Below are positions 1 to 11,286 of a stretch of DNA of 21,465 nt, piece by piece (the stretch's first letter is position 1; every line of letters starts with the position of its first letter). This stretch comes from a virus. The position numbers were made by a program, and so were the translations under genes. The DNA lies in IMG/VR virus record IMGVR_UViG_3300030406_000492, positions 1 to 21,465 of that record. One strand, written 5' to 3'. The notes beneath the pieces are model-generated. The model was given only the letters and a program-made list of their open reading frames with translations, did not search any database and had not been told where the DNA came from.

Positions 1-414
1 GTTCTCGTGTTTGTACCTTTCAAACATGCAATAGATATACTAACGGACAAGCTACGCTCGGAGGGTATAACGACAGAAGTTATACGTGGAGATGTACCTG
101 CACACAAACGCACACATATATTTAAACAGTTTCAAGAAGATGATGACCCACAAGTGCTTGTCATCCAACCACAAGCAGCCGCGCATGGTGTCACGTTAAC
201 ACGAGCTAACACAGTGGTGTGGTGGGGGCCAACGAGTTCGCTAGAAACATACGACCAAGCGAACGCACGTGTGCATAGGTCTGGGCAAACACATAAATGC
301 ACCGTAGTACAACTGCAAGGGTCTGATGCAGAAAAGCATGTATACAGACTATTAGATAGAAAAATAAACGTACACACAAAGTTTGTAGAACTTTACAAAG
401 AAGTACTTGACTAA
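1..414 (+). CDS. SNF2-type DNA helicase, C-terminal part (5' end outside window)
   Basis: This is the C-terminal RecA-like lobe of a superfamily 2 helicase of the SNF2 type; the reading frame is open to base 1, so the N-terminal ATPase lobe lies off the window. Visible motifs are the motif V region (HGVTLTRANTVVWW, around bases 184-225) and the classic motif VI signature QANARVHRSGQ (bases 256-288), whose arginines contact ATP in this superfamily. Many phages carry a compact SNF2-like helicase next to their replication genes, where it probably remodels DNA or protein-DNA complexes during replication or recombination; the exact substrate cannot be read from this fragment. The TAA stop overlaps a promoter-like -35 box, and the next gene starts 50 bases on with its own ribosome-binding site. 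Family assignment is strong; the precise role is inference. Confidence 0.88.
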   Translation, partial: VLVFVPFKHAIDILTDKLRSEGITTEVIRGDVPAHKRTHIFKQFQEDDDPQVLVIQPQAAAHGVTLTRANTVVWWGPTSSLETYDQANARVHRSGQTHKCTVVQLQGSDAEKHVYRLLDRKINVHTKFVELYKEVLD

Positions 415-435
415 GACACTTTTTACTATTATATG
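407..435 (+). promoter_or_regulatory. Candidate sigma70-like promoter overlapping the helicase stop codon
   Basis: TTGACT at 407-412 and TATATG at 430-435 are separated by 17 bases, the ideal spacing for a sigma70-type promoter. The -35 matches 5 of 6 consensus bases and the -10 matches 4 of 6. The -35 overlaps the helicase stop codon. An imperfect AT-rich dyad (ATGT 433-436 with ACAT 441-444, plus flanking A/T pairs) covers the -10 region and could be an operator or chance. It would drive the genes starting at 465. In AT-rich DNA such matches are not rare, so this is only a candidate. Confidence 0.35.
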
Positions 436-464
436 TTACTACATAATAAGAATAGGAGAGAGAC

Positions 465-860
465 ATGGGTGACAAGATAACCCCTGACAAGTTGGCAAAG
501 ACGTATTTACGTATACGAGCAGAGAGATCTATGCTGTCAGCCAAGTACAAGGAAGAAGATGGCAACCTTGTGCGACAGTTAGATACAATAAAACAGGCAA
601 TGCTAGATCATTGTGAAGACCATAATGTAGAAAGCGTGAGAACTTCTGAAGGATTATTCTTTCGTTCGACTAAGAAGAAATACTGGGTTAGTGAATGGGA
701 TGCAATACACAAACTTATTGTGGAAGAAAATGCACCTCAGTTACTTGACAAACGTATCAATCAAGCGAACATGAGAGAGTTCTTGGAAGAAAATCCTGAT
801 CTTAAGCCAGAGGGATTAGAGATTGAAGAAGAAGTAACAATTTCTGTGAGGAAGAAATGA
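465..860 (+). CDS. Conserved phage protein of unknown function, replication operon
   Basis: A 131-residue soluble, highly charged protein with no signal peptide or membrane segment. The N-terminal half (about residues 6-50) looks like a continuous amphipathic helix rich in K/E/R. The C-terminal half (about residues 60-131) has the pattern EGLFFRSTKKKYWVSEWDA, followed by a helical stretch ending in EVTISVRKK. Proteins with this helical N-terminus and the 'RT..G..fRs....v.dWda' C-terminal pattern are, as I recall them, common in phage early regions and are usually annotated hypothetical; I cannot assign a biochemical role. The start is supported by AGGAG about seven bases upstream. It overlaps the following helix-turn-helix gene by 4 bases (ATGA), so the two are probably translated together. 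Confidence 0.8.
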   Translation: MGDKITPDKLAKTYLRIRAERSMLSAKYKEEDGNLVRQLDTIKQAMLDHCEDHNVESVRTSEGLFFRSTKKKYWVSEWDAIHKLIVEENAPQLLDKRINQANMREFLEENPDLKPEGLEIEEEVTISVRKK

Positions 861-1093
861 ATGAACCTTTTGTAACAATAGAAGACGTAGCTAAACACTT
901 TAGCGTGTCCGTATCAACTGTTCGTGCTTGGGTGAGTCAGAAACACATACCTGAAGATACTTATGTAAAAATAGGTAAAACTCATAGGTTTCGTATTTCA
1001 GATGTAACTGAAGCATTGACGAAAACATCTAGTAGCCGTAGCGAAGAAACAGTGGGCGAAGACTCACTAGCTGAACTAGATGAAGACTTATAA
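857..1093 (+). CDS. Small helix-turn-helix DNA-binding protein (MerR/excisionase-like fold)
   Basis: A 78-residue protein whose residues 4-55 match the helix-turn-helix/winged fold shared by excisionases and MerR-like proteins (HTH_17 type): TIEDVAKHFSVSVSTVRAW gives the two helices, and the wing region contains KIGKTHRFRISDVTEAL. The last 20 residues are acidic and probably disordered (EDSLAELDEDL). It starts inside the stop of the preceding gene (ATGA overlap) and is followed after 20 bases by the SSB-like gene. No integrase or attachment site is visible here, so the excisionase label should not be taken as a function. A transcriptional regulator or a replication-associated DNA-binding protein fits the context equally well. 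Confidence 0.8.
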   Translation: MNEPFVTIEDVAKHFSVSVSTVRAWVSQKHIPEDTYVKIGKTHRFRISDVTEALTKTSSSRSEETVGEDSLAELDEDL

Positions 1094-1113
1094 TATAGAG
1101 AGAAGGAGAGAAA

Positions 1114-1797
1114 ATGGAACCATATATTATAAAAAACGTAGAGGCTCTTTGGCCTAAAATAAACACAACTTACCACTTTGATAATAAAGCAGGTAGGTCT
1201 GTTGCGTGTGATGCCAAAGCTGATGGCGCAGAATATTCTATACAATTTCGTATGGACAACGATACTGCCAAAGCTTTGTATATTGAAATGGCGAAGGTGT
1301 ATCAAGCCAATAGAAAAGAAAAATGGCCAGAAAAGTTGGAGCGTCTGTTTGTCAAGGACGACGATGGCATGTTTACGCACAAGGCTGTTTTAAAGGGTGC
1401 GTATAAAAACCAAGCCACTCCTAGACCCATACAGGTTGATACCAAGGGTAACAGATTACCAGCAGATTTTATGTTGACCACAGGTAGCACGGTTAACATA
1501 GCTGTAACATTTACTCCGTATGAGATGGGTACTAAGCAAAATATTTCACTGCGTCTCAAAGGGGTACAGGTCATAAAGTACGTACCTTATGAAGATAGAA
1601 ATCCTTTTGAAGAAACTGAGGGGTTTGTATTTGAAGCAAAGGAAGAAAACCCTTTTGATACAGGTGAAACTGAAGCAGAGGACGTTGTGACAGAAGATGC
1701 TGTGGCAGAGCCAAAGAAAGTTGCTAAGAAGTCTTCCCCTCCCACCAAGGATGCTGATGGCGACTTGAGTTCTATTGTTGCCGATTGGGACGACTAA
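1114..1797 (+). CDS. Single-stranded DNA-binding protein, T7 gp2.5-like
   Basis: A 227-residue protein that most resembles phage single-stranded DNA-binding proteins of the T7 gp2.5 type: a beta-rich OB-fold core (about residues 1-165) with the VDTKGNRLPADF strand pattern and a GSTVNIAVTFTPYEMG / ISLRLKGVQVIKY ending, followed by a long low-complexity acidic tail (about 170-227) finishing in SSIVADWDD. In T7 the acidic C-terminus recruits the replication proteins and competes with DNA for the binding surface; the tail here is consistent with that. A purine-rich ribosome-binding site (AAGGAG) lies just upstream of the ATG. It sits directly before the primase-helicase gene, as expected for a replication module. 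The assignment rests on architecture and remembered family patterns, not on a search. Confidence 0.68.
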   Translation: MEPYIIKNVEALWPKINTTYHFDNKAGRSVACDAKADGAEYSIQFRMDNDTAKALYIEMAKVYQANRKEKWPEKLERLFVKDDDGMFTHKAVLKGAYKNQATPRPIQVDTKGNRLPADFMLTTGSTVNIAVTFTPYEMGTKQNISLRLKGVQVIKYVPYEDRNPFEETEGFVFEAKEENPFDTGETEAEDVVTEDAVAEPKKVAKKSSPPTKDADGDLSSIVADWDD

Positions 1798-1804
1798 TAG
1801 AACT

Positions 1805-1868
1805 ACACCACGACTAGGTTTTTACCGAAAGGATAACGTGCCGTATCTTGTCGTGGTGTCTTCGGCAC
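1805..1868 (+). promoter_or_regulatory. Two crossing inverted repeats (candidate pseudoknot) in the leader of the primase-helicase gene
   Basis: ACACCACGAC (1805-1814) is perfectly complementary to GTCGTGGTGT (1850-1859), giving a 10-bp stem with a 35-base loop. Independently GTGCCG (1838-1843) pairs with CGGCAC (1863-1868). The second 5' arm is inside the first loop and its 3' arm is outside it, so the stems cross: they can coexist only as an H-type pseudoknot or else alternate. The second stem ends directly next to the ribosome-binding site AAGGTGGG (1869-1876) of the gene starting at 1881. A cis-acting translation control element is the natural inference; a protein-binding site or origin element on DNA is an alternative. 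Confidence 0.5.
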
Positions 1869-1880
1869 AAGGTGGGAAAA

Positions 1881-4628
1881 ATGGAAACAAAAGAATTTTT
1901 AGAGAAGGTTTTAGGTGATGGATATTACTCTGTATTAGGTCTTGGAGACAAGAAGATACAGAGCTTTCACGCAACCATAGACGATGTAATAGAGAGGGCT
2001 AACGAGTTAGATGCTGAAGGTATTAACGCATACTTTGGTTTAGCCACATTTGAAACAAATAAAGATAGACGTGTAACAAACGTAAAAAGTCTAAGTTCTT
2101 TTTATTTAGATTTAGACTGCGGTGTTGGTAAAGAATACACTAACCAGAACGAAGCGTTTCTAGATTTAAAAAGATTTGTAAAAGCAACAGGACTGCCTCG
2201 ACCTATGTTAATCAACTCTGGGTACGGGATACATGTGTACTGGGTTCTTACAGAGAGTGTATCATATGCGGAGTGGTTACCTGTAGCCCAGGGCCTCAAG
2301 GATATGTGCATACGTCATAACTTGTCAGCAGACAATGGTGTAACTGCGGACGCAGCGCGGGTACTCAGAGTCCCTGGCACACATAACCACAAGCGTGGCA
2401 CACAGAAACCTGTCATGTTTCTTGGCACGGGTGAGTTTCACGACGTGGAGTTTGACGAGTTTTCTAGACTTGTGGGTGCAGAGGGCATCAGCATACCAAC
2501 CAAAGTAGACAACGAAGAGAACGAATTTAAGAAAGCTATAATAGAAAACTCTGAGAACAGCTTCAAAGTTATACTTGACAAAACTATAAAAGGCGTTGGG
2601 TGTGAGCAGATTAAAAACATCATGGAGAACCAACAGGATATAAGCGAACCTTTATGGAGAGCAGGACTATCCATAGCAAAGTTCTGTAATGACGCTGACA
2701 AAGCTATACATAAGATGTCTGAGAGACACCCAGAATACAATCAGTATCTGACAGAAGAGAAAGCAGACCTTATAAAAGGTCCGTATACATGCGCTAAGTT
2801 TGCAGAGGAAGATCCAACCACGTGTTCGGCTTGTCCTCATTGGGATAAGATAGCGTCACCGATAGTGTTAGGTAAAGGTATAAAGAAAGCACCTGTGTCA
2901 AAGGACATACCGCTATACCCAGAGCCATACTTTAGAGGGGCAAATGGCGGTGTATATATGCACTTTAAAGACAAAGATGGTAACACAGAGGACAAAGTTA
3001 TATATCAAAACGACTTGTATGTAGTCAAACGTATCATGGACGTAGAGGTGGGCGAAGCTATTGTCATGCGTTTACACTTACCTCAAGATGGTATAAGAGA
3101 GTTTACAGTTCCGTTGACTTCTGTAACATCTAAAGAGGAACTAAGAAAACAATTGTCTATGCACGGCATAGCTGTACTAAGAATGGATGATATCATGGCA
3201 TACACAACTACATGGGTAACACAACTACAAGCAAAAAGCGTAGCAGAAGAAGCTCGCAGGCAGTTTGGGTGGACTGACGATGATTGTGGAGGTTTTGTGC
3301 TTGGTAATGAAGAGATAACTATTAACGAGACAAAGTTTAATCCTCCTTCTACACCTACGGCTAGTTTGTTTCCATCTTTTGAACCTAAAGGCACGTTAGA
3401 AGATTGGAAAGATACGGTGAACTTTTACAACCGTGATAACTTTGAGTTACATCAGTTTGTTCTTGGTACGTCATTTGGTTCTCCATTGATGAAGTTCTCC
3501 CCCATAAATTGTGCTGCTTTGCATATATACAGTAAGGAGTCAGGGGTTGGTAAGACAACTGCCATGATAGCAGGGGCATCTGTGTGGGGTAGTCCAGAAG
3601 ATTTGATTATGCACGAACGAGACACGTACAATACAAAGATGAACAGGGGTGAGATATACCACAATTTGCCTATGTATATGGACGAGCTTACAAATACTTC
3701 AGGTAAAGAGTTGTCTAATCTAGCGTACCAACTGACTGGGGGTAGACAGCGTGGGCGTATGTCAGCGAGCAGTAACGTGGAGCGTCATAGAGGTGAGGCA
3801 TGGAAGCTACTAGCTGTTACTACAGGAAATACAAGCATGGTAGAGCGTATAAGCATTATAAAAGCCATGCCAAAAGCTGAAGCACAGCGCATACTAGAGT
3901 GCCGTGTTAGCCGTATGCAGTTTGACACGAAAGAAGAAACAGACGTATTTAGCACATGTCTACAAAATAACTACGGACACGCAGGTAAAGTATACATCAA
4001 ACATGTCATGGAGAACTTAGACGAGGTGCAAAAACTTATACGACAGGTACAAGAAAAGGTTGATGCTAAAGCAAATCTCACAGCTGAGAACAGATATTGG
4101 TCAGTGCTTGTTGCTTGTACGTTGACGGGTATCATATTGGCAAAGCGGTGTGGTCTGGTGCAGTATGACACCAAAAAACTGTTTCAGTGGGCTGTAGAAC
4201 GTTTGAAAGAGAACAAACGTCAGGTTGAGGACATGAGCATATCTGTCGAAGAGACACTCAACGATTACATACACGAGCATTGGAGTAATGTATTATGGAT
4301 TAAAAGCACAGAGGATTTACGTAAGCAAGAGGGCGATATAGCTAACCTTGTCATACCTGAAGCTTTACCAAGAGGTAAACTCGTAGCCCGATACGAGACA
4401 GATTTGAAACGTGCTTTCCTTGTACCTAAACCTTTGAAAGCATGGTGTGGTGAACATCAAATAAACTATAACTCGTTTCTACAAGATCTTACAACTAAAC
4501 TGGGAGCCACTAAGGTTAAGATGCGATTAAGTAGAGGCACACACATGAACTTACCACCTACATGGGTGATACAAGTTGATTGCGCGATAAACGATGAGAT
4601 TACGACAGGGGATACTAAAGTCGGATGA
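1881..4628 (+). CDS. Bifunctional primase-helicase: AEP/PrimPol-type primase fused to DUF927-like ATPase
   Basis: A 915-residue replication protein likely to synthesise primers and unwind DNA at the fork. N-terminal archaeo-eukaryotic primase domain (about 1-210): metal-binding FYLDLD (D77, D79), the SGYGIHVYW motif (H118) and TADAARVLRVPGTHN (D157). A cysteine cluster (C304, C315, C318, then PH) resembles a zinc-binding insert. The helicase part (about 400-800) has Walker A SGVGKTT (K558) and Walker B MYMDEL (D601, E602), in the arrangement of DUF927-type phage ATPases. The ATG at 1881 is preferred because AAGGTGGG sits 4 bases upstream; an in-frame TTG at 1848 would start inside a predicted RNA structure. 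Its 3' end overlaps the next small gene by 35 bases. Domain types are confident; the biochemical activities are inferred. Confidence 0.88.
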   Translation: METKEFLEKVLGDGYYSVLGLGDKKIQSFHATIDDVIERANELDAEGINAYFGLATFETNKDRRVTNVKSLSSFYLDLDCGVGKEYTNQNEAFLDLKRFVKATGLPRPMLINSGYGIHVYWVLTESVSYAEWLPVAQGLKDMCIRHNLSADNGVTADAARVLRVPGTHNHKRGTQKPVMFLGTGEFHDVEFDEFSRLVGAEGISIPTKVDNEENEFKKAIIENSENSFKVILDKTIKGVGCEQIKNIMENQQDISEPLWRAGLSIAKFCNDADKAIHKMSERHPEYNQYLTEEKADLIKGPYTCAKFAEEDPTTCSACPHWDKIASPIVLGKGIKKAPVSKDIPLYPEPYFRGANGGVYMHFKDKDGNTEDKVIYQNDLYVVKRIMDVEVGEAIVMRLHLPQDGIREFTVPLTSVTSKEELRKQLSMHGIAVLRMDDIMAYTTTWVTQLQAKSVAEEARRQFGWTDDDCGGFVLGNEEITINETKFNPPSTPTASLFPSFEPKGTLEDWKDTVNFYNRDNFELHQFVLGTSFGSPLMKFSPINCAALHIYSKESGVGKTTAMIAGASVWGSPEDLIMHERDTYNTKMNRGEIYHNLPMYMDELTNTSGKELSNLAYQLTGGRQRGRMSASSNVERHRGEAWKLLAVTTGNTSMVERISIIKAMPKAEAQRILECRVSRMQFDTKEETDVFSTCLQNNYGHAGKVYIKHVMENLDEVQKLIRQVQEKVDAKANLTAENRYWSVLVACTLTGIILAKRCGLVQYDTKKLFQWAVERLKENKRQVEDMSISVEETLNDYIHEHWSNVLWIKSTEDLRKQEGDIANLVIPEALPRGKLVARYETDLKRAFLVPKPLKAWCGEHQINYNSFLQDLTTKLGATKVKMRLSRGTHMNLPPTWVIQVDCAINDEITTGDTKVG

Positions 4629-4827
4629 TTTAAATCCTGACGGGGTTCGCATTGTGGTAAATTGGGACAACATGGTAACAAGTTCCTCTGTATTTATCTT
4701 ATGTGTGGATGTTCGAGAAGCCGTGAGACAAATAAAAAACATAGCAAAAACAAAAGGTTGGGACGTAAAAACACAAGTGCGTGTGGAGAATAACAAATTA
4801 GGTGTTCGCATTTGGAGAATTTTGTGA
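4594..4827 (+). CDS. Small conserved hypothetical protein
   Basis: A 77-residue protein overlapping the end of the primase-helicase gene by 35 bases in another frame. The first 15 or so residues may not be real coding sequence, since ATG 4594 lacks a clear ribosome-binding site; a later start such as ATG 4672 is possible. The central and C-terminal part is compact and protein-like: SSVFILCVDVREAVRQIKN, then KTKGWDVKTQVRVENNKLGVRIWRIL. The pattern helix - 'GW' - strand - 'GVRiWR' recurs, as I remember it, in small proteins of marine phage genomes, and no function is known to me. It is the last gene before the tandem terminators, so it shares the replication transcript. Confidence 0.6.
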   Translation: MRLRQGILKSDDLNPDGVRIVVNWDNMVTSSSVFILCVDVREAVRQIKNIAKTKGWDVKTQVRVENNKLGVRIWRIL

Positions 4828-4905: not shown

Positions 4906-7900
4906 CTAAAAGAAAGTATAATCGTCGTCAAACTGTTGTTCGTGTAATAAAATTAAGTTTTTATTAGAAGAAGATATGGATATACCATTGTGTTGTTGTA
5001 TGTTTTTAGATTGCTCTATATGTCTTTGCATAGATTTTTTTACAGAATCCCCTGTTATAGAAGATAATGGGTGACGCTTATTATGATCCATCATCTCTTT
5101 CAAAGCTTTGTTCATCTCTTGCGTGTTACCAGATCGAACAGCAGTGTAGTACTTTTTTAATATTTTGCTTTTCTTTTCGTTAACCGCTTTGTCTATGCCC
5201 TTCTTTATGTTGTTCTTTTCCATAGTATTTGTGTACTCAACAGGAGGGAATCCAAATAATATACCTGCCAAATCCCCACCCGTAACGTCATCAAATATTG
5301 GATCTCCTCTTCTTGTCGCATACCCCTCTTCTGTTAGTCTACCACTTACAGGGGTAGGCACTACTTTGTATATGTTTGCCAAACCAGGAGGTAAAAAGTT
5401 TTCTGTAGCTCTCTCTAGCTGACCATTACCTACATCTCTAAAACCCTGTTCTATCCTTTTTACCGTGCTGTATGCAGGTCCTCCGAACATAAAAAACAAA
5501 GTTTCTTCTAAAGAAGCGTCTCTGTTATATCTATTTTCGTTTAGCAAAAGACCTGTTAACCGTATTCTGGTAGCCACATCAACACCAGTCATCGAGTTTA
5601 TAGCTCCTTTAAAACCTTGTTCCCCTACAAAACTTCGCACTATGGAATCAAAATCCTCTTCCTCATCATCTAGCAGAAATAGATTCGCTAAAACTTCAAA
5701 CGCCCCGTACAGAGGTATACCTTGCGCTCCTGCAAAGAATAGTGCGCTTGCATGCACACCTATTAACTTGTTACGAGCAACTCTTTTAGCTTCTAATCTT
5801 TCTGTTTTCTGTGCAGGTGTCTCTCCATCAACAGGAGCGAACATATTGTCTAGATAGTCTTTGCTTGTTTGTAACATAGTTGTGTACATTCTTATGCCGT
5901 AACTCTTATACATCAAAGCTACACGCCCTAGACCCTGCTGCGCCCAACGCGGTGCTGTCTCTAGCACGGCTCCACCATTAGTTTCTTGCGTTTGTCTTAA
6001 CGCTTTCAAAGCAGCGTCTTGCTCACTCATGCCTTTTTCAAGAGCTAACTCATAACTTGCCATCAAGGTGACTTGTCTATTGAGTCGCTCCGCTTGGTTA
6101 AAAGGTATGGCAGATATAGCAACAGTGTTGTTCATGAAAGATCGCCAATCACCTGTTTTTCGTCTTCCTGCTTCGTCAAGACCTAGCGCATCCACTATAA
6201 AAGATCTGGTCAACTGACCTCTGGATTGTGCTACCTCTACCAGTGTTGCAAACTTTTTTAATTCTTGCACCTCTTTGGCAGGTAAATCCACGCCTGTAAC
6301 AGACTTTAGATCCTTTTTTAGAACATATTTTCCATTTGCTACCTCAAAGTAATTATCTAAAGAGTTCTTAGCATTAGCCACACGTCTGTATGCGTTTGCT
6401 ATGGCTTTACCAGATTTAAGATAACCATGTTCTGCTCCTAGATATGGGTAAACAAACAACGGTATTTGAGATAGGTTTACCACCGCTGATGACACGTTAA
6501 ACCCTATCGTATACAGAAAGGCTCCTTGGTTTGCGTTCTTAAACCACTTTTCTAACTCTTTGTAGTTTGCGCCTGTACGTGCAAACTTTGACCTATCCAA
6601 TAATTCTTTTGCTATGTTTTGGGCATATTTATTTGTTTTAAGTTGAGGTTCCTTAGATAAACTAAGTATTTCGGATTCTATACCTGCAATCTCTGCACTA
6701 TACTCCAGCTTTACTACATCACGACCTAAGTTAAATCCTTTTATTCTAAAGGCTTCTAACATATTTTTTCCGTGACCAGGGTTGCCTGTTCTACGTTGCA
6801 ACGACTTAGCGTACGATGTTTCAGGTAGTGTGTTTATAAACAACTCCACAACACTTTCTTTTAAACCGTCAGCCTTATTACCTAGTTTGCTTTCGTCGAT
6901 TATATCCATAACTTGTCTTACAAAAGAGGATGGGGGTGCATTTTTTCTCATATATTCGTTAAATACAGATTGAGTTTCATCTACTCTAACCTCCCCATCA
7001 GCCAGACCTTCTGCCTCTATCTGTGCAGCTCTCCTATCCATCTCTCTCTTTGAAGATACTAACTCAACAACTAACGGATCTTTTAAGCCTCGTGCTTCTG
7101 CATCAGCAGCTATGTAGGATATTTTATAAGTGCCTTGACGAACAAGTGGAAAGTATATTTCTAACTCTTTATCTTTAAATATCTCTTCAAAAATAGTTTT
7201 TATCTTCGTTTTAGACTCCTCATTTCCCTCCATTTCTTTATCTATTTTGCCAAATAATATCTTCTTCAATCTTTTAAAATTGCTCTGGTAAAATTTTCTT
7301 TGTGTATCGTACACCTCTTTCCATTTATCTTTACCAAACTTCTTATTAAGCTGATCTATTATAGCCTGTTGCTTGTCATATCGAGATGCTAAATCTGCAT
7401 CAGTAGGGCGTTTACCTAAGGGGTCTATCTGCCATATTGTAGCTCCGAATGTTTCATCGTAGATAAGATCATTTAATAACGACTCCATACCATCATTATT
7501 TTTTAGTATGTTCATAACTTTTCTTATAGCATCATCAAACGTTCTGTTCGCTGTATCTAGACCACCTCTTTGCCGTAGTAAGGCATCATTTAATTTAGCC
7601 CCCAGTCCTTTAAAACCGTTTCTATCTGCTAAATCGCCTATAACTAAGGAGTCTGTAAACCCTAAAACAAATTGTTGTAGATAATTTTTTAATTTATACA
7701 CTACCTCTGAGAATTTATCTAACCACTCAATTTTCTCTGTAGATGTCATGGCTTTTTGTTTAGCCTGTTGCCCTAAAGATTTAAGAACGTTCCGCACTCC
7801 AGCTTGATCTGATGCCATGCGATAAACAGAGGCATTTCTGCTATTTGGTGCAGGTTCTAGTATTGACTCTATCAATGGATCAACAGTGTTAAGGGCTGAA

Positions 7901-10900
7901 TCTGTTCTAAGTATATCTTGCAGAGGCATTAGTTTTGCTCCTAGAACACGCTGTAACAAGTTAGCAACTATATTACCAAAACGTCGTAACGCACTAAGAG
8001 GTTTACCTTTGGGATTTATACCTGCAAGTTGACTTCTAAATAAAGGGTTACTAAACGCTTCAGCTACAAACTCATCTACATTCTTGGACCCATATGCCGT
8101 ATCCAGGCTATCTTTAACATCATTGTATAACGTGTTAAGTTGTCTTGTAATTGGATTAGATGGTTTTTTCAGCGTAGCAGACGTAAGTGCGTGAGTAACT
8201 TCATGTAACAAGACATGAGAGTTCATTCCTCTGTCAGGGTGCAGTTCTACTGTGTTCGTCTTTGGGTCAAACAATCCAGCTGTATCTTCTGGTAAGTTTT
8301 GGTTTAACACAATTTTAGTGTCACCTATAACATTAGCTAACTTATTTCCAAGTGTGATTATCTTTGAGGGTATTATGCCGTTAGCATTAGTTTTACCAAG
8401 ATACTCAAGAGCTTTCTTTAACTCCCCTGCTTTCAACAACGCTCGCACGTCAGGGTGAAACTTTATGCTCATACCAAACACTTGGGTGCTTAATAACTTT
8501 TGTTCTTTGCTGCCCAAGTTAGCTAATATCCCGTCATCACTATTTGCATTTCTTGCGGCAATCGCTCGTTCATTTCTTTCTACGGCTTGAAGTTTTTGTA
8601 TTGTTTCATACGCAGAGGGAGCATTCTTTTGAATCCACTTTGCAGCATTATTCGCTCTTATTTGACCTGTGCCTCTACGTAGGTTCTCTGAAGCTAAAAA
8701 TAATTGGTTCACTTCAGAGATCTCCCCTACCATGCCTTGCACGTTAAAAAACTCTTTTGACGGTCTATATTTATCCACAGGTTTAACTACCTCTGTTTTG
8801 ATAATCCTACCGTACTCATCTCTTCTACCTGTTCTTTTCCCTGTTTCTGGATCTTTCTCTGACACTAATTTTATATCTTGTAGGATCATGTCGTGCGCTA
8901 TAACTTCCAAAGCATACGAGGTATTACTATACTTTTTAAGATAATCTCTAGCGGCTTCAGCAGGTCTATCGTTCTTTGCTACTTTTCTCTTGCCAATAAC
9001 TAATTCAATTAGCACCGCTTTGTCTTTTGCATTAGTTTCGTCTTCTACCTCTTTTGTGCCTCGGTAAAAGTTTTTATCTATCAAAGCCGCATCGTCAGAA
9101 GCGTTCTGTTCGAACCATGCCTTATGAGCCGTATTAAGGTTTCTAATCTTTTGTATACCTGCAACTCGTGCCTCTTCTTCTTTTTGCTTCGTAAGTGTTT
9201 CTAGAGCTGCATCAGTCTTTTTTTCTCTTTCTTCTTTTGTTAACTGCGCTTGTTGTTTTTGTATACTACGCCTTACCTCTGCCTCATCATCAATTTTTAA
9301 AGCTTCTGGTCTTTTTACTTTTGCCTTAACTTCTTTCTGTGTTTCGGCTGTCTGCTTTCTTAAATCTTTAAACCGCGTCTCTGCCTCTTGTATAGCTTTA
9401 GATCTTTCTTCTACTAAAGTCCTTTTCGTATCTGCTAACTGCTTTTTTAAATTATTTACTATGGGCGATCTAGGACCCTCCTGCGCTCTTGCTTGTTTAA
9501 TAACAGGATTAAACTCTGCATCCAAAGCATCAAGTCGTGCTTGGTAACGGTTGTTGATTGTTTTTTTAGTGTCTTCGAGAGGATCGACTAAAATCCTGCC
9601 ATCATATAGCTCGTCAATCTGGGCAGCTGCGTCCTCTTCACTAACCTCTACAGGTGTCTTTGTGGGAGTTTTAGCCACCACAGTTTTATCTTGTTGTTCT
9701 TGTGGTGCAAACCCCATTTCAGGTTCTTTACTTTCAACTTTTTCTTTTTTACCTTCGGTAACTATGGGCGCGGCTTGCTCACCCTTTTCTCGTAAAGCTT
9801 CAAGTGCTTCGACCTGTGTCATACCTTTTGGTACTGTCAGGTCATTAGTTTTCATAGCCCGTCTCATTTCGGGAGTGACAGCAAAACTTGTAGTAGATAT
9901 TCCTTCTTCATCAAGCCTAGATATCAACTTAGCTGCTGTAGGGGTAACTCCTGAGTATCGTTTTACAGGATCTGGCTCTACAGGCACATTTTTAAACTCT
10001 ATCTTCTTTTTCTTTGTCTTTTTTGTTTCTGTTTTCTTTGGTTCTTGTACTTTTGTTTCTTCTGGTATTAAAAAGTCCTCTGCTAGTGGTCCACCCAGTT
10101 CTCTTTCAAATTCAGCCTCCTCTCGTTTCTTTTTTTCCTCTATTTGTTCTTGTATCTGCTTTCTAGTTTTCTGAGCTTCAATCTCTTCTTCCTCTGTAAG
10201 GTTTCGTGGTTGTGCTTTTTTCTTCTCTAGTGTAGACTTTTCTTTTCTTTTTCTAGTAGCACCAGGTCCAGTAGTTGTGCTAGAAGCATCCACTCTATTG
10301 TCTGTAACTCCCTCAATGGCTTCGGTAATCTCTTTATCGGTTGCGCTGAAGTCCTCGCGTTGTGTATCGTCTCTAGGGCGAGTTCTACTTCCTTCGTCGT
10401 CAGTCTTTGTAACATCTGCTTTAGCTCCTCTTCTAGGTGCAATCATCTCAACAATGGTTTGCACAAACCCACCTACGCCTGCGCCATAACCGAAAGCCTC
10501 CCCAGACCCCTCGAATGTGCCTTGTTCTGGATTGTATATACCTTGCTCAATTAAGTTCTGCCCCACTGCAGCGGCATATTCCTGCAGACCCTCAACACCT
10601 GCTTCCTGTAGTATACGCCCCCCTTTATCATAGATGTCGTCCGCAGCGGTTTTACCTAAACCTCCTCTTAACTTATTAAGTATCCTAGTGGGAGATATAA
10701 GTTCGGATAATCCCACTCCTGCTCCCAATACAGCGGCTCTTGTTCTCTCTCCTTCGGTAGCCTCTGACTCTCTAGCTCGCTCACTAGCTTCACCTGCACC
10801 TGCTGTGACTGCTAGCCCTGCACCCGCAAGAGGGTTTATTGCGGCTGTACCAAGAATACCACCAAAAGATCCTAAGGCTTCTGCAAACTTACGTGGTACA

Positions 10901-11286
10901 GCAGACGCTCCATAGCCTATATTTACATCAGGGGCAAGGTAGTCCTGTATCCCTTCTCCAACAGATTTTATACCTCTACGTACAGGGTCTTCTAAAACTT
11001 CAGGTAGTATACCCGCTGCGCCTAACGCACCACTTTCTAATACACCTGCTATACCGCTACCAAGACCTTTTACCACTTCACCTGCTTGGTCAGCTATGGT
11101 TCCAGGTCTCTTTCTTTTTGCCTCGCGTATAGCAGCGAAAGCTCTTTGTGTAGGACTTAATGTGTCTTCTTCTTTGTCGGATTGTCCTGACGCAAGTATA
11201 CCTATAAGATCGTCAATAGTTGCTCCCTCTGGGCCTTCTACCCGTATCGGAGTGCCGTCTTTTTTGTATATCTCGTAAGTAGGCAT
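4906..11286 (-). CDS. Giant polyvalent internal virion/ejection protein with HExxH metallopeptidase motif
   Basis: A 2126-residue multi-domain protein of the polyvalent type that phages package and inject. The first 35 residues form a short conserved-looking module (YEIYKKDGTPIRVEGPEGAT). Residues ~60-290 are Gly/Ala-rich and hydrophobic, suggesting membrane interaction. Residues ~290-720 are highly charged and largely coiled coil. A zincin motif HEVTH sits at 1028-1032, followed by E1076 in DEFVAEAFSN, a plausible third zinc ligand. The C-terminal ~900 residues are mostly helical; the part around 1680-1800 recalls large-polyvalent-protein-associated (LPD) domains, and ~1840-1872 is hydrophobic. 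It is longer than T7 gp16 (about 1300 residues), which does a comparable ejection job. AGGAG precedes the ATG by about 6 bases. Protease activity and ejection are inferred, not shown. Confidence 0.8.
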   Translation of the reverse strand: MPTYEIYKKDGTPIRVEGPEGATIDDLIGILASGQSDKEEDTLSPTQRAFAAIREAKRKRPGTIADQAGEVVKGLGSGIAGVLESGALGAAGILPEVLEDPVRRGIKSVGEGIQDYLAPDVNIGYGASAVPRKFAEALGSFGGILGTAAINPLAGAGLAVTAGAGEASERARESEATEGERTRAAVLGAGVGLSELISPTRILNKLRGGLGKTAADDIYDKGGRILQEAGVEGLQEYAAAVGQNLIEQGIYNPEQGTFEGSGEAFGYGAGVGGFVQTIVEMIAPRRGAKADVTKTDDEGSRTRPRDDTQREDFSATDKEITEAIEGVTDNRVDASSTTTGPGATRKRKEKSTLEKKKAQPRNLTEEEEIEAQKTRKQIQEQIEEKKKREEAEFERELGGPLAEDFLIPEETKVQEPKKTETKKTKKKKIEFKNVPVEPDPVKRYSGVTPTAAKLISRLDEEGISTTSFAVTPEMRRAMKTNDLTVPKGMTQVEALEALREKGEQAAPIVTEGKKEKVESKEPEMGFAPQEQQDKTVVAKTPTKTPVEVSEEDAAAQIDELYDGRILVDPLEDTKKTINNRYQARLDALDAEFNPVIKQARAQEGPRSPIVNNLKKQLADTKRTLVEERSKAIQEAETRFKDLRKQTAETQKEVKAKVKRPEALKIDDEAEVRRSIQKQQAQLTKEEREKKTDAALETLTKQKEEEARVAGIQKIRNLNTAHKAWFEQNASDDAALIDKNFYRGTKEVEDETNAKDKAVLIELVIGKRKVAKNDRPAEAARDYLKKYSNTSYALEVIAHDMILQDIKLVSEKDPETGKRTGRRDEYGRIIKTEVVKPVDKYRPSKEFFNVQGMVGEISEVNQLFLASENLRRGTGQIRANNAAKWIQKNAPSAYETIQKLQAVERNERAIAARNANSDDGILANLGSKEQKLLSTQVFGMSIKFHPDVRALLKAGELKKALEYLGKTNANGIIPSKIITLGNKLANVIGDTKIVLNQNLPEDTAGLFDPKTNTVELHPDRGMNSHVLLHEVTHALTSATLKKPSNPITRQLNTLYNDVKDSLDTAYGSKNVDEFVAEAFSNPLFRSQLAGINPKGKPLSALRRFGNIVANLLQRVLGAKLMPLQDILRTDSALNTVDPLIESILEPAPNSRNASVYRMASDQAGVRNVLKSLGQQAKQKAMTSTEKIEWLDKFSEVVYKLKNYLQQFVLGFTDSLVIGDLADRNGFKGLGAKLNDALLRQRGGLDTANRTFDDAIRKVMNILKNNDGMESLLNDLIYDETFGATIWQIDPLGKRPTDADLASRYDKQQAIIDQLNKKFGKDKWKEVYDTQRKFYQSNFKRLKKILFGKIDKEMEGNEESKTKIKTIFEEIFKDKELEIYFPLVRQGTYKISYIAADAEARGLKDPLVVELVSSKREMDRRAAQIEAEGLADGEVRVDETQSVFNEYMRKNAPPSSFVRQVMDIIDESKLGNKADGLKESVVELFINTLPETSYAKSLQRRTGNPGHGKNMLEAFRIKGFNLGRDVVKLEYSAEIAGIESEILSLSKEPQLKTNKYAQNIAKELLDRSKFARTGANYKELEKWFKNANQGAFLYTIGFNVSSAVVNLSQIPLFVYPYLGAEHGYLKSGKAIANAYRRVANAKNSLDNYFEVANGKYVLKKDLKSVTGVDLPAKEVQELKKFATLVEVAQSRGQLTRSFIVDALGLDEAGRRKTGDWRSFMNNTVAISAIPFNQAERLNRQVTLMASYELALEKGMSEQDAALKALRQTQETNGGAVLETAPRWAQQGLGRVALMYKSYGIRMYTTMLQTSKDYLDNMFAPVDGETPAQKTERLEAKRVARNKLIGVHASALFFAGAQGIPLYGAFEVLANLFLLDDEEEDFDSIVRSFVGEQGFKGAINSMTGVDVATRIRLTGLLLNENRYNRDASLEETLFFMFGGPAYSTVKRIEQGFRDVGNGQLERATENFLPPGLANIYKVVPTPVSGRLTEEGYATRRGDPIFDDVTGGDLAGILFGFPPVEYTNTMEKNNIKKGIDKAVNEKKSKILKKYYTAVRSGNTQEMNKALKEMMDHNKRHPLSSITGDSVKKSMQRHIEQSKNIQQHNGISISSSNKNLILLHEQQFDDDYTFF

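Follow-up and report, generated by a model that had tools for sequence, protein, structure and literature searches.

The primase leader of a marine phage contains a conserved pseudoknotted RNA apparently related to int-alpA RNA

What is the role of two inverted repeats that cross each other immediately upstream of the start codon of a phage primase gene? The locus belongs to a marine phage, known from a virus record of 21,465 bases, hereafter the window; the genes at its left end all lie on the plus strand (Table 1). A gene for a Gp2.5-like single-stranded DNA-binding protein (SSB), closed by the tandem stop codons TAA TAG at 1795–1800, is separated from the gene for a DUF927 primase-helicase by 83 nt. 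This is the longest gap among the co-directional genes at 1–4827, which bears out the view, taken in the preliminary description of this DNA, that it is a sizeable non-coding stretch in the replication operon. A small HTH_17 gene is placed two genes 5′ of the primase gene, and a minus-strand ORF of 2126 amino acids occupies 4906–11286. The Shine-Dalgarno (SD) sequence and the ATG of the SSB gene lie between the arms of an A/T-rich inverted repeat of 10 bp, TTATAATATA/TATATTATAA (1088–1097/1123–1132); this repeat is retained in close relatives, is absent from more distant ones, and could be a ribosome-binding-site (RBS) hairpin or a promoter.

Both repeats of the primase leader are perfect, as first described: ACACCACGAC pairs fully with GTCGTGGTGT over 10 bp, and GTGCCG with CGGCAC over 6 bp. 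They cross, and the second stops at 1868, flush against the SD region AAGGTGGG. These are two helices of a larger structure, of which two further hairpins, P2 and P3, had been missed. P1, formed by the longer repeat, encloses P3 and P2 in a three-way junction of about 65 nt, and the loop of P2 pairs with the 3′ tail to form a pseudoknot (PK).

Table 1. Features of the primase leader and of the genes around it (window coordinates)
Feature	Position	Strand	Evidence
Helicase end, then small ORF	left end of window, 5′ of HTH_17 gene	+	
Small HTH_17 gene (excisionase/AlpA/MerR-like)	857..1093	+	Pfam HTH_17 4e-9; PHROG excisionase/HTH matches
Gp2.5-like SSB gene	1114..1797	+	phrog_112 3.6e-17
P1 5′ arm ACACCACGAC	1805..1814	+	sequence; P1 covariation
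Junction UA and first GG of P3, part of conserved CUAG	1815..1818	+	invariant in alignment A7; CUAG in int-alpA
P3 hairpin, GGU (1817–1819) with ACC (1824–1826)	1817..1826	+	covariation at third pair
Junction GAAA, counterpart of int-alpA GAAAA	1827..1830	+	alignment
P2 hairpin, GGAUA (1831–1835) with UAUCU (1844–1848), first pair G·U; loop 1836–1843	1831..1848	+	
PK strand a GUGCCG, inside P2 loop	1838..1843	+	swap test, compensated pairs
P1 3′ arm GUCGUGGUGU (DNA: GTCGTGGTGT)	1850..1859	+	perfect complement of 1805–1814
PK strand b CGGCAC	1863..1868	+	swap test, compensated pairs
SD region AAGGUGGG (DNA: AAGGTGGG), touching PK end	1869..1876	+	sequence
DUF927 primase-helicase gene, ATG at 1881	1881..4628	+	Pfam DUF927 2.3e-28; PHROG primase/helicase

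A 10-bp perfect repeat arose in 45 of 20000 dinucleotide shuffles of the leader and the crossing pair of repeats in 2 of 20000, and elsewhere in the window a perfect repeat of 10 bp whose loop measures at most 60 nt occurs just once. The 6-bp match between loop and tail taken alone is found in about 11% of the leader shuffles, and the case for the pseudoknot therefore rests on covariation and not on the window sequence. A plain fold of the leader recovers the long stem, together with a hairpin resembling P2, at only modest support (z −1.5). In the window the SD shows no clear base-pairing of its own, and no strong local hairpin forms there (z −1.15). Two familiar kinds of element were rejected at this level. 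A readthrough or frameshift pseudoknot is excluded for the window, since no open frame joins the SSB and primase ORFs: the tandem stops are followed by an in-frame TAG at 1815–1817 that also shuts the primase frame upstream. A hammerhead ribozyme would have a CUGAUGA ... GAAA core and a UH cleavage site; the window junction holds only CUA and GAAA, and no Rfam ribozyme matches it.

Relatives of the leader were collected with the primase as query against viral contigs (204 coding stretches, of which the best 80 were used) and by three further scans with distant relatives as queries, which gave 185–258 matches each and extra loci. The SSB–primase gap was extractable in 134 loci, 68 of the gaps being distinct. 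Most leaders display the same four-helix order, namely P1, a short P3, the GAAA junction, P2, the 3′ arm of P1 and the loop–tail PK, with arms that vary in sequence: CACCACGAC/GTCGTGGTG versus CACTGCGGC/GCCGCAGTG for P1, GGATA/TATCT versus GGGTGT/ACACCC for P2, and GTGCCG/CGGCAC versus TGTGTCA/TGACACA, TGCCG/CGGCA, GCACC/GGTGT or ACCGA/TCGGT for PK. Over 24 primase leaders, 97.6% of the cells of P1, P2 and P3 are paired and 11 of the 16 pairs have changed on both sides. This covariation was matched by none of 500 shuffles, and pairing falls below 30% when the partner is slid by one base. Two-sided changes affect 6 of 9 pairs in P1 (alignment A7) and all 4 counted pairs in P2, while the third pair of P3 is UA in 12 sequences and CG in 9.

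One-base shifts of the tail prevent the PK columns from being aligned across all 24 leaders, and the knot was therefore probed by pairing loops with their own or with swapped tails. The observed complementarity was reached by 148 of 20000 permutations for 12 distinct primase-leader loops and by 0 of 20000 for 52 loops of int-alpA-pattern loci (see below). In an ungapped subset of 10 sequences that includes the PK, 99.6% of cells pair and compensation is seen at two PK pairs. Neither the permutation figures nor the covariation counts take account of tree structure. Within their main stem, the primase leaders have 42 G·U cells versus 4 A·C cells, an excess that indicates selection on the plus-strand RNA rather than on DNA or on the opposite strand. 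Covariation in all helices, the swap test and this coding-strand excess thus uphold the RNA pseudoknot that had been proposed for the primase leader.

The full fold is nevertheless dispensable in some lineages. In L049 the three-way junction is lost and a loop–tail complementarity, GUGUUUAAA/UUUAAACAU, is still there; by eye, L077 behaves likewise (ACACTG/CAGTGT). The distant leaders L147–L175, L150–L166, L052, L058, L083 and L109 have a strong hairpin of changed sequence in the same gap, in which neither an evident PK nor a three-way junction was found, as if this hairpin were a reduced form of the element. Pseudomonas phage Rollin has no element, and Rhizobium phage RHph_TM3_14A carries a G/C-rich hairpin of another kind. 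In single lineages (L046, L086, L176, L301) P3 is swapped for far longer arms, such as GAGATTA/TAATCTC in L176; P3 tolerates insertions there while the junction bases stay. A blastn search of the element against phages gave chance matches only, and the primase protein alignment, run against bacterial genomes, found no relatives.

Does this RNA belong to a known family? Rfam was silent on the window itself, with nothing relevant at curated or permissive thresholds (E up to 5), and the link to int-alpA RNA (RF02996) came only from relatives: at the orthologous place in their leaders, L128 (47.8 bits), L169 (39.6 bits) and L120 (37.9 bits) match this family over its cut-off. On this basis public collections were searched with the int-alpA core DNA pattern, which yielded 64 bacterial stretches, mostly from Betaproteobacteria, and at least 120 viral stretches, 80 of which were used. 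A covariance model, R1, was built from 29 int-alpA-pattern loci, none of them from the primase-leader set; a few of the 29 are viral loci in front of primases that are more distant, which leaves the training set independent of the tested leaders but not of all phages. R1 matches the window at 1807..1875 on the plus strand with 20.7 bits (over 21 kb, E 2.3e-4), the next best match scoring 7.1 bits, and also detects 18 other SSB–primase leaders at E 3e-4 or better. The 29-sequence alignment A6 was selected partly for P1 pairing, which inflates its pairing figure of 97%; an anchored count without P1-based choice gives 657 standard pairs out of 735. Over the first seven pairs, the anchored count in the int-alpA-pattern set is not lopsided (G·U 38, A·C 30), and the strand argument for that set therefore rests on gene context. 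Only the primase-leader figure is used for strand, automatic stem detection having often chosen wrong stems in the int-alpA-pattern set.

The window element and int-alpA RNA have in common the order P1–UA–P3–GAAAA–P2–CU–P1′, the conserved CUAG and CGAAA junction, and complementarity between the P2 loop and the 3′ tail. They differ in P2, which is A/U-rich in the window (GGAUA/UAUCU) and G/C-rich in int-alpA RNA (GCGGG/CCCGC), with intermediate forms in L065 (GGGUAA/UUACCU) and L128 (GGGUGA/UCACCC), and in the closing sequence, CUUG versus CCUG. They also differ in location: the window element lies between SSB and primase, int-alpA RNA after int and before alpA. The Rfam model is printed without a pseudoknot and typed as 'Gene; sRNA'. 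The window element is called a divergent relative of int-alpA RNA, rather than a filed member, because it does not reach the gathering threshold of 35.8 bits. An earlier paper is reportedly the primary description of int-alpA RNA; no functional study of it was found in the literature searched. The suggestion of a new control element consequently stands in part: the RNA family is already catalogued, as an sRNA, while the context and the placement in cis look new.

The placement is nearly constant. Of 112 distinct int-alpA-pattern loci with enough flanking sequence, an ORF on the same strand begins no more than 70 nt after P1 in 106, and in 99 the RNA has a same-strand ORF on either side; the opposite-strand control for these loci gives 42 and 10, respectively. 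The upstream ORF mostly stops 6–28 nt 5′ of P1. TTTT follows soon after P1 in just 19 of the 112, so that the usual sRNA terminator is lacking. An intrinsic terminator was rejected for the same reason and because the window has no G/C-rich stem with a U-tract, its tail being UCUUCGGCAC. The genes 5′ of these RNAs encode integrases, HTH regulators, SSBs and others; on the 3′ side, many marine phages have a gene for a DUF927 primase, and bacteria mostly an unclassified ORF, Pfam, NCBIfam and PHROGs giving essentially no family for the bacterial ones. The E. coli islands read integrase, RNA, a DUF6387 or hypothetical ORF, an AlpA/HTH gene, a KilAC antirepressor and an Icd-like gene, and a DUF927 protein is encoded further along the same gene run (L393 10215–12241, L394 9087–10170). 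The RNA is present in 7 of 198 sampled genomes from the order of Pluralibacter. Some loci carry more than one copy: L398 has two on the same strand, at 809–877 and 1501–1571, about 690 bases apart, and genome G219 has three. In one clade of phages (L308, L313, L275, L334 and related viral loci), a gene for an HTH-like protein of 74–86 amino acids lies directly 5′ of the RNA–primase pair, a layout that resembles the int-alpA islands. A family listed as sRNA is thus common in phages and mobile islands, has a covarying pseudoknot and, with few exceptions, lies immediately 5′ of a start codon. On these grounds RNA-level control of replication genes in uncultured marine phages becomes a definite hypothesis that experiments can address, and the E. 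coli islands offer laboratory models.

The comparisons above establish how the RNA folds, that this fold is conserved, which strand is under selection, that the RNA has homologues, and that it nearly always sits between the stop codon of one gene and the RBS of the next. From its position, and from its relatives in other gene contexts, a role of the element at the primase start is plausible. I consider it reasonably probable that the leader holds a cis-acting structured RNA, homologous to int-alpA RNA, in the form of a three-way junction of P1, P3 and P2 with a loop–tail pseudoknot. Such an element would most likely control translation of the downstream gene, probably as a switch or brake. In the SSB–primase message, the folded knot packed against the SD would hinder 30S binding and uncouple translation of the primase from that of the SSB. 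Unfolding by the ribosome finishing SSB or, alternatively, through loss or gain of a partner that recognises the conserved CUAG/CGAAA junction, would raise primase synthesis; a constant brake and a sensed switch are both candidate modes. In some subfamilies the SD itself is paired. By eye, the sequence 5′ of P1 pairs with the SD in one subfamily, where L072 (CACCAAAA/TTTTGGTG) and the group of L075, L117, L120 and L126 (CACCATA/TATGGTG) differ by two-sided changes, and many bacterial copies enclose the SD in a small hairpin whose arms vary (GCACC/GGTGC, ACACC/GGTGT); over the bacterial copies, SD-region folding is weakly better than in shuffles (mean z −0.33, with imperfect start-codon calling). 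In some bacterial copies, L226, L215, L217 and L220 among them, the CCUUCA loop of P2 is complementary to two stretches of UGAAGG, one being the PK strand and the other the SD itself, possibly a built-in switch. A wider proposal, made tentatively and with some doubt, is that int-alpA-type RNAs, the window element included, are widespread cis switches of phages and satellites, in which the invariant CUAG/CGAAA junction would bind one shared partner, be it a metabolite or a host factor such as a ribosomal protein, and the PK would relay the signal to the RBS of the next replication or accessory gene, including the DUF927 primases of marine phages.

The element could instead leave initiation untouched and set the SSB:primase ratio by cutting, protection or partial termination of the message. 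The flanking genes are probably required in very different amounts, distant relatives retain just a strong hairpin in the gap, and U-rich tails occur in a few leaders (L150, L165); however, the tail of the window family is not a terminator tract, the SD-pairing extras point to initiation, and a simple stabiliser would not need conserved junction bases, so that processing or attenuation seems rather unlikely. A trans-acting small RNA, transcribed alone or cut from the message and pairing with another target, would agree with the Rfam type, and its stable fold would outlast processing. It is unlikely given the scarcity of U-runs or terminators after P1, the almost invariable placement in an operon-like gap close before a start codon, irrespective of the flanking genes, and the little space that 83 nt leave for a promoter of its own. 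The preliminary description had raised the SSB as a bound autoregulator, and the SSB gene does lie directly 5′ of the element, but the T4 operator pseudoknot, the precedent for a gp32-style repression of this kind, lies 5′ of gene 32 itself (PMC535899). In the window the knot precedes primase, not SSB, and is separated from the start codon only by AAGGUGGGAAAA, with none of the UUAAA or UAAA repeats. RNAs of the same class are also found after integrase or HTH genes, where the immediate neighbours include no SSB gene, and after others, and they precede genes that are unrelated, so that SSB binding is not supported and is very improbable. Least credible of all is a DNA element, either a replication origin or operator, as the preliminary description had also envisaged, or a single-strand initiation site: inverted repeats do adjoin the primase gene, but the G·U excess, the near-constant orientation toward a same-strand start codon and the copies beside integrase genes in bacteria speak against it.

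Known systems offer partial parallels. Like the T4 gene 32 operator, the window element is a phage mRNA pseudoknot 5′ of an RBS in a replication gene region, but the T4 operator is a knot of about 28 nt with over 40 nt of UUAAA-rich RNA on its 3′ side, 5′ of the SSB gene (PMC535899). The window element, by contrast, is built on its much larger three-way junction, lies 3′ of SSB and 5′ of primase, and abuts the SD. With pseudoknotted translational riboswitches such as preQ1-II and SAM-II it shares invariant core bases and a pseudoknot at the RBS. No Rfam riboswitch matches the window element, the genes downstream of int-alpA-type RNAs are unrelated to each other, and the element would be a candidate switch without a known ligand.
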